Shown in pieces: positions 33,681 through 39,111 of a stretch of DNA of 44,779 nt. This DNA is from Nitrososphaerota archaeon (GTDB taxonomy: Archaea; Thermoproteota; Nitrososphaeria; Nitrososphaerales; Nitrosopumilaceae), in NCBI GenBank assembly GCA_016872015.1, contig VHBK01000009.1, forward strand, positions 1 through 44,779. The letters run 5' to 3'. The position numbers and the translations under genes were made by a program. How positions within the stretch are numbered: the stretch's first letter is position 1; each line of letters opens with the position of its first letter. The notes beneath the pieces are model-generated. The model ran no database searches. It saw only the letters and a list, made by a program, of their open reading frames with translations, and was not told the DNA's origin.

Positions 33681-33947
33681 CTAGGGATTTGATACTTCCA
33701 TTGATTCATCCAAGTTGACAGATAGATTGCGTCCCTCTGCAGCTTTTTCCTCTTCTTGCTTTAGCTTCATTTCCTCTAGGAATTGCTTGTACTCGAACTG
33801 CTTTTCCTTGCTTACTCTGTCAGAGTATAGTACATCGTCACCTATTGCTAGGTATAGCAAGGCAATCACTACTAGCGATGCGGCAACTAAAATCATGGAA
33901 TAGCCAACTGTTCTATAATTGTGAGGGTTCTTTTCCTTGCTTTCCAT
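33681..33947 (-). CDS. Single-pass membrane protein with coiled-coil tail
   Basis: An 88-residue protein with one helix (YSMILVAASLVVIALLYLAI) preceded by a basic cytosolic leader. A charged helix rich in Lys and Glu (YKQFLEEMKLKQEEEKAAEG) follows. No family is recognised. Upstream, a TATA-like GGATAAATC sits inside an inverted repeat GGGAT/ATCCC (33967-33971, 33977-33981). Confidence 0.68.
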   Translation of the reverse strand: MESKEKNPHNYRTVGYSMILVAASLVVIALLYLAIGDDVLYSDRVSKEKQFEYKQFLEEMKLKQEEEKAAEGRNLSVNLDESMEVSNP

Positions 33948-33994
33948 CGTTATTGCCTTGATTTTGGGGATGATTTATCCCTTTTTAGTTTTTT

Positions 33995-34136
33995 TGCGCA
34001 TTTTGGATCTGGGCCAGATGCGCATCGAATTGAACATACAGATCTTTATGGGCTAGTATCCCTACACTATAATTCCTGAAGGTCTTGCGGCACCTCTCCG
34101 GAGGTTCTTGTCCCGCACCTCCCTTCAGCTTTATTT
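33995..34136 (+). ncRNA. Candidate structured RNA or leader element
   Basis: The 227-bp gap between the divergent genes at 33947 and 34175 is full of dyads. The 5' part has TGCGCAT (33995-34001) pairing with ATGCGCA (34018-34024). An alternative inner dyad is ATCTGG-G-CCAGAT (34007-34019). The 3' part folds as a long hairpin: CTGAAGG/CCTTCAG (34076-34082, 34122-34128), TGCGG/CCGCA (34086-34090, 34113-34117) and ACCTC-TCCG-GAGGT (34092-34105), where c(UCCG)g is a stable UNCG tetraloop on the plus strand. CTTTATTT follows, as at a terminator. It could be a free small RNA or the leader of the 34175 gene. No known RNA family was recognised. Confidence 0.4.
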
Positions 34137-34174
34137 GCAAAAGGCACAAAACCGACCTGGTGTAATCCAATACC

Positions 34175-34510
34175 ATGACCATTCAGATCCTAAGCTACGA
34201 GTTTTTGGGACCAATCCAACTATCCGAGTGGGGCCCTCCAATGGAAGAAGTCCTGTATATTATTTTATCAAAAAACAAAGAAACGTTTCAGATTATTCAT
34301 GTGGGCGAGTCTGGCAAAACCGACGATGCTGGATTTTTCACAAAAAATATCCAGTTCAAGTGTTGGTTATCACATGCATCCGAGCAAAACCTACACCTGT
34401 GTATCTATCCGATGTGGGGCTCAGAGCCAGAGCAGCGACAAAAGATTGTACACAAAATTATAGAAAAATACAATCCGCCATGCAATTCAGATGACACAAA
34501 TATCGAATAA
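34175..34510 (+). CDS. Unknown protein, possibly GIY-YIG-like
   Basis: A 111-residue protein. EVLYIILSKNKETFQIIHVG followed by ES resembles the first strands of a GIY-YIG nuclease fold. The C-terminal EQRQKIVHKIIEKYNPPCN resembles the end of that fold. The canonical Tyr residues and catalytic Arg are not clearly present, so this is a weak structural guess. A TTTATTT stretch upstream, after the long hairpin, might be its TATA box. It lies directly before a 37-residue zinc ribbon. Confidence 0.6.
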   Translation: MTIQILSYEFLGPIQLSEWGPPMEEVLYIILSKNKETFQIIHVGESGKTDDAGFFTKNIQFKCWLSHASEQNLHLCIYPMWGSEPEQRQKIVHKIIEKYNPPCNSDDTNIE

Positions 34511-38455: not shown

Positions 38456-38761
38456 AGTGATTTCTAATACTTCGCCTACTTGGGGCCTTCCAAGTCTTTC
38501 GTATCGAACCTTTGGCATTGTAATGGATATGGTGGTCTGATCATATGTCTTGATTTTGACTGTCGGCTGTGCTCCCAAAATTGCCTCCAGTAACGGCTGT
38601 ACTTGCTCCTTTAGTTCTGGGTCTAGCTTTTTTGCAACGGAATCTAGGATCATCTGTTTTTGTGAGATTGGCTCGGTTTGTACGTCTTCTGCAAGTGAAA
38701 CCTGCACTATTGCTCCATTATCTACAATTTGGTGAATTCGGTATTTTGTAATGTCTGCCAA
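38444..38761 (-). CDS. Conserved-looking small protein, unknown function
   Basis: A 105-residue soluble protein with beta-rich ends ([36 protein letters not shown]) around a helical centre ([20 protein letters not shown]). No motif identifies a function. It overlaps the DUF255 gene by 12 nt at the 3' end. Confidence 0.68.
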
Positions 38762-38802
38762 TATTGGTTCTCTTCTATAATGGGATTTAATCCATTCTAG
38801 CG

Positions 38803-39111
38803 TTATTCCAGTATTGCCTTTTTGATGAGTGCTGCTTTGTCTTTGATTAGTTTGTTGAATTCCTGCATGTCGTCCAGCTCGACTGGCCTTTTCTCATTCT
38901 CGTATGCTCTCAAAAACGCAGAATACACACATCCAGCTATAATTCCGAATGTGGCGTCTTCTATGGATGCTACCTCCGGGGAATAGTTTTGCATGATTTG
39001 TTTGAATGACTGGGCTTCGCTTATGTAATAGTCAATCTGGCTGTCAAGAAAATCGCGAGTGTATTTTGTTAGTGCCACTCTGTAATTTCTGGTTTGATGA
39101 TTTATTAACAT
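38803..39111 (-). CDS. Small helical protein, unknown function
   Basis: A 102-residue protein from ATG 39111 (MLINHQTRNYRVALTKYTRD); a TTG at 39120 is possible. Predicted all-helical (YYISEAQSFKQIMQNYS; GIIAGCVYSAFLRAYENE; LIKDKAALIKKAIL). Family not recognised. Its start lies only 20 bp from the divergent start at 39132, so the promoters must overlap. Confidence 0.65.
   Translation of the reverse strand: MLINHQTRNYRVALTKYTRDFLDSQIDYYISEAQSFKQIMQNYSPEVASIEDATFGIIAGCVYSAFLRAYENEKRPVELDDMQEFNKLIKDKAALIKKAILE

Follow-up and report, generated by a model that had tools for sequence, protein, structure and literature searches.

The gap between a divergent minus-strand gene (88 aa) and a plus-strand gene (111 aa) at positions 33948-34174 (227 nt) of the window, as we call the whole 44,779-nt stretch of DNA analysed here, probably holds a small-RNA gene of the Nitrosotenuis lineage. 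We place this gene at 34019-34136, predict from it an RNA of about 60 nt, and give the reading a probability of roughly 0.58. On sequence comparison the element is real, constrained and lineage-restricted, and most likely encodes a small hairpin RNA that selection has preserved in a few near relatives. As such it would be ordinary in kind, an archaeal small RNA, and new as a member. If transcribed, it would be a concrete, short and testable small-RNA candidate in ammonia-oxidising archaea, and the covariance model R1 is at hand for finding it. An earlier note on this DNA had offered two interpretations: a small structured RNA, which is supported by the constraint on the hairpin, by a conserved block at fixed spacing and by a U-rich run in four of four carriers, and a structured leader of the downstream gene (the 34175 gene), which has become less likely.

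Table 1. Features of the divergent gap and of the genes that flank it
Feature	Position	Strand	Reading
Inverted repeat TGCGCA...TGCGCA with inner palindrome ATCTGGGCCAGAT	33995-34024		Candidate operator between divergent promoters, or a DNA or RNA stem
Upstream block TGCGCATCGAATTGAACATACAGATCTTTATGG	34019-34051	+	Probable promoter, made up of an upstream element and a weak BRE/TATA (ACAGATCTTTATGG, 34038-34051)
Probable small RNA, about 60 nt	34075-34136	+	Three-tier hairpin (34076-34128) plus U-rich tail
TCTTGTCCC stretch	34106-34114	+	3' side of the asymmetric internal loop plus first stem bases; candidate binding site
U-rich run CTTTATTT	34129-34136	+	Directly after the hairpin; candidate terminator
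A-rich element AAAAGGCACAAAACC	34139-34153	+	Promoter-position element belonging to the 34175 gene, at a fixed distance upstream
Downstream gene, 111 aa	34175-34510	+	GIY-YIG-like predicted fold
Divergent gene, 88 aa	33681-33947	-	One hydrophobic stretch by eye; shares the same gap

Folding of the hairpin and its rank among gaps

The hairpin has an outer helix CTGAAGG/CCTTCAG (34076-34082 with 34122-34128), a middle helix TGCGG/CCGCA (34086-34090 with 34113-34117) and an apical helix ACCTC-TCCG-GAGGT (34092-34105). Reading of the sequence, with which the predicted fold agrees, places the three tiers and the run that follows them where the earlier note had put them, and reading alone does the same for its two upstream dyads, TGCGCAT at 33995-34001 with ATGCGCA at 34018-34024, and ATCTGG-G-CCAGAT at 34007-34019. 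While dyads, hairpin and run were borne out, what had been said of the uniqueness of the hairpin, of its loop and of the first TATA-like element needed correction.

RNA folding of the 81 nt at 34060-34140 gave z = -3.1, with 1 of 200 shuffles equally stable, and folding of the whole 227-nt gap gave z = -1.96. The statement that nothing of this kind occurs in other gaps proved too strong when the 31 gaps of the window were scanned on both strands in 546 windows of 70 nt: the hairpin ranked 12th by z and 8th by energy on the plus strand, and the minus-strand window at the hairpin had the lowest energy of all 546. The folding strength of the hairpin is thus high without being unique, since a few per cent of the gap windows rank as high or higher. 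At 38754-39003, too, windows of either strand fold strongly (z to -4.55), and this stretch may be unrecognised coding sequence.

All four known homologues fold into hairpins (z of -2.6, -3.4, -2.0 and -4.3). The most stable, at -23.7 kcal/mol, is that of G003, which differs from the others mainly within loops and through changes of length that leave the stems untouched; in G012, 4 of the 17 pairs are broken (one outer, two middle and one apical) and the predicted fold differs. The UNCG tetraloop is not a constant feature, as UCCG is found in two of the four homologues (the window and G001), with UUCG lacking a closing pair in G012 and UUUU in G003. The best-kept letters of the hairpin are CUUGCGGC and CUUGUCC, and CTTGTCC is invariant in all four.

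Stem conservation and compensatory changes had been named as checks on the structure. Across the four sequences, 63 of 68 pair cells (92.6%) are standard pairs, as against 37-51% when partners are slid, in a count made on alignment A5, which was fitted to the structure of model R1 and so leans towards structure. Two-sided changes occur in 0 of 17 pairs of the hairpin, with only four sequences to compare, and two pairs vary on one side. Model R1 was itself built on alignment A3, which misplaces the first stem of G003.

Constraint on the hairpin sequence

Conservation, not folding strength, is the real evidence for the element. Compared with G003, the most distant carrier, the hairpin is identical at 45 of 54 positions (83%) and the 33-nt upstream block at 27 of 33 (82%), while the spacers around them reach 29/53, 7/18, 10/23 and 7/21 (33-55%; 53/115 in total). 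The 34175 gene in the same pair of genomes is identical at 60 of 109 third codon positions and at 16 of 29 fourfold-degenerate sites (55%). Between hairpin and spacers the difference has a Fisher p of 4e-6, for regions that were picked after looking. Identity of the hairpin is 93% with G001 and 81% with G012, where fourfold sites are identical at 17/33 and 18/31, respectively. Judged by these alignments, the hairpin is conserved well above neutral sites.

A promoter-like block at constant spacing and a U-rich run

In four of four carriers the TATA-like site of the upstream block begins 37 nt before the hairpin and its TTAT core lies 29 nt from it, across a linker that is only 43% identical with that of G003. 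A conserved block, a variable linker and a hairpin at constant spacing form the pattern expected of a promoter followed by a transcribed RNA. In 24 of 28 tRNA genes of the same genome, the promoter motif begins at -34 to -39. We built a position weight matrix from these promoters, using 28 of 35 tRNA matches (30 as loci; L095 and L112, at contig ends, were dropped), by which the block's TATA-like site in the window scores 3.4 bits, slightly over the 99% level there (2.9). At that offset the other three carriers score -1.4, -1.4 and -3.4 (best nearby, -0.1). The position of the block fits tRNA promoters and its letter match is weak; we read it as a probable promoter. Searched as a pattern in the 17 genus genomes, the block matched with zero mismatches in the four carriers only, and each of six other matches had three mismatches.

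Of the two TATA-like elements first proposed for the gap, the one at 34043-34050 falls within the weak core at 34038-34051. The one at 33972-33979, by position and sequence, reads better as a putative promoter of the minus-strand gene that starts at 33947. A TATA-like sequence in the linker, CTACACTATAATTC, scores 8.1 bits in the window, 0.2 in G001 and 2.7 in G012, and is outside the eight best sites of G003. It is disfavoured as a promoter because transcription from it would begin inside the hairpin.

Behind the hairpin each of the four carriers has a U-rich run, which reads CTTTTTTC, CTTTTTCA and CTTTTTTA in the relatives, and the window's own run is weak and imperfect (TTTATTT). According to one published account, poly-U stretches suffice for archaeal intrinsic termination, and the archaeal RNA polymerase needs no hairpin for it (PMC7289017).

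Distribution among genomes

Four of 17 Nitrosotenuis genomes (G000, G001, G012 and G003) have the hairpin, always at the same place, and it is single copy in the window's own genome, a 1.3-Mb assembly; a pattern search of viral contigs gave no match. By whole-gap DNA search, 6 of the 17 genus genomes were matched, G005 and G015 only over stretches before the hairpin. Model R1, which was built from the four carriers, recovered those four alone at E <= 0.01 in 250 family genomes, and the same four in a search of 400 genomes of the class, a set that overlaps the first. Weak relatives may be missed by both R1 searches, since they used Infernal's stricter filters. A match in G046 (20.9 bits, with an E of 0.067 per genome in the search of 250) lies at a different place, is low in G+C and has two first-helix mispairs, and was therefore taken as chance and omitted from the carrier counts.

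Upstream of the 34175 orthologue in nine genus genomes (G002, G004, G005, G006, G008, G009, G014, G015 and G016), both reading and an R1 scan found no hairpin, so that its absence there is more than missing data. In G008, the neighbouring protein is 80% identical to that of the window, as close as in G003, and the hairpin is absent. The gap there (L153, about 2830-2900) is largely gone and the divergent gene is without its usual start; deletion or an assembly fault has therefore removed the hairpin. A tree of the neighbour protein (17 of 30 fetched orthologues) is poorly resolved, needs three changes of carrier label, and does not settle the question of a single gain plus loss.

Relation to known RNA classes

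An Rfam scan, which the earlier note had suggested, found no Rfam 15 family at its gathering cut-off in the window; the best of four sub-threshold matches within 33900-34250 scored 17.5 bits, where 41 were needed. ARAGORN called no tRNA or tmRNA gene in the window. C/D guide RNAs carry a C box, RUGAUGA, and a D box, CUGA; H/ACA guide RNAs carry ACA 3' of a hairpin with a K-turn or K-loop near its apex. The candidate is like both in small size, and like the H/ACA kind in being a hairpin with an internal loop, but differs from them in having no ACA, RUGAUGA or K-turn by eye and no Rfam match. We rejected an H/ACA assignment, as CAGCTTT follows the hairpin in place of ACA and its apex, by eye in four sequences, is a simple tetraloop stem. 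A C/D assignment was rejected as well: the first stem contains CUGA, but no C box was seen by eye in 34075-34136.

Archaeal intergenic small RNAs, such as those of methanogens and haloarchaea, are short and have their own promoter, a hairpin and a U-rich end. The candidate is like them in its predicted short length, intergenic place, hairpin and U-rich end, and probably in having its own promoter; it differs in that no sequence or Rfam relation was found and in its restriction to a few Nitrosotenuis genomes. Intrinsic terminators and attenuators of the bacterial kind share with it a hairpin with a U-rich run behind it, placed ahead of a gene. The candidate is more elaborate than a terminator, with a three-tier, 53-nt hairpin and a conserved internal loop, and the 34175 gene seems to have its own promoter. 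The genus Nitrosotenuis has cultured or enriched members. A defined Nitrosotenuis small RNA did not appear in the titles and abstract openings of the literature searched, which lies mostly outside subscription journals. Mapped transcripts from the Red Sea cover marine Thaumarchaeota, and the part of that report consulted here holds no small RNA of this kind (PMC5069720).

Alternative readings of the element

Were transcription to start near 34075 and continue into the 34175 gene, the hairpin would belong to a structured 5' leader or attenuator of that gene, in which hairpin and U-run stop or pass the polymerase. We consider this unlikely. In its favour are the strand and promoter common to hairpin and gene, the 45-46 nt that separate hairpin and ATG in four of four carriers, the imperfect U-run of the window, and a TATA-like TTTCGCTTTATTTTG block that four sister genomes (G002, G006, G009 and G014) retain far ahead of the same gene. 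In the upstream regions of this sister clade (L027, L029, L030 and L033), variable sequence follows the block. However, the 34175 gene keeps an A-rich element of its own in relatives, most of them without the hairpin, and a separate RNA that ends at the U-run is therefore favoured over a leader. The A-rich motif, A-runs around G or C, is present upstream of 29 of the 30 orthologues compared. In 24 of the 30, 21-25 nt lie between its end and the start codon, with or without the hairpin, as against 91 of 1278 background tiles that hold it anywhere; the orthologues are related, which makes these counts non-independent, and the motif was defined once the sequences had been inspected. On a leaderless gene, TBP and TFB bind about 21-25 nt before the start codon, and an A-rich element at this position would be fitting for a leaderless start, with letters unlike the classical TATA box. 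Nor does the hairpin accompany the gene: a search of 200 family genomes found the gene in 130, as against 4 of 250 for the hairpin; even within the genus, only 4 of 14 genomes with a matched 34175 gene carry it.

The second alternative is an element that acts as DNA, in which dyads and hairpin would be protein-binding operators in a divergent control region and no RNA structure would form. The dyad at 33995-34024 lies roughly midway between the inferred RNA start and the start of the divergent gene, and in G012 its arms read TGCACA/TGTGCA, one two-sided G-C to A-T change that keeps the inverted repeat and agrees with an operator no less than with a stem. In G001 the inner palindrome is replaced by ACCTGATCAGGT, and the two dyads first reported, present in the window, are absent as such from G003. 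The gap of G003 does hold further dyads; it is longer (L012, about 1160-1330), and CCACTC-TGCG-GGAGTG and GATGG-TATT-CCATC appear as extra dyads in its fold. We nevertheless regard a purely DNA-level role as improbable: the outer arms of the hairpin are 39 nt apart around an asymmetric interior, which is unusual for an operator, and the conserved loop strand, the U-run and the fixed spacing to the promoter-like block point to RNA.

Least probable is a chance hairpin or relic conserved for an unrecognised cause such as a minus-strand small protein, for although its folding strength does no more than place it among the best few per cent of gap windows and a 65-aa minus-strand ORF runs across 33985-34182, conservation is well above neutral sites, and stops in G012 and frame-changing indels in G003, together with indels in the hairpin, argue against coding in that frame.

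A proposed course of expression and action

For the small-RNA reading, we propose that the weak TATA-like box at 34038-34051 would start transcription near 34073-34076, that the RNA would fold as a single three-tier hairpin, and that it would finish in the U-rich run, no later than about 34136 and immediately ahead of the promoter of the 34175 gene. An operator for a regulator of both the RNA and the divergent gene may lie in the 33995-34024 dyad, and the conserved CUUGUC(C) strand of the internal loop might be offered to a protein or a short target. Taken together, these steps would describe a lineage-specific, regulated Nitrosotenuis small RNA that has a promoter to itself, shares an operator and binds a protein or target RNA through its CUUGUC internal loop, and thus an undescribed trans-acting riboregulator; this fuller picture is tentative, and somewhat doubtful as a whole. 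The loop complement GGGACAAGNA occurs at 32 sites in the four genomes, as against 27 for the reversed control, and so is not enriched. Three of the 32 sites are the RNA gene itself, and a few occupy corresponding positions in two or three of the genomes, which gives no evidence of targets. Because enrichment is lacking, a role in protein binding would be as likely as an antisense one.

Flanking genes

Neither the 34175 protein nor the divergent protein has a Pfam or NCBIfam match over cut-off, and the neighbour proteins have no solved-structure match by sequence. For the 34175 protein, a GIY-YIG-like fold is predicted at a mean pLDDT of 78.8 from an alignment of 10 of the 30 orthologues. No Foldseek match reached an E of 1e-3 or lower, the best being 1yd3, the N-terminal domain of UvrC (E 2.9e-3). 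On its own, this predicted fold points to no role for the RNA. The A-rich element AAAAAGAAAAAA, at 34139-34153 and at the same place in L008-L037, is an unusual promoter-position motif found across the family.
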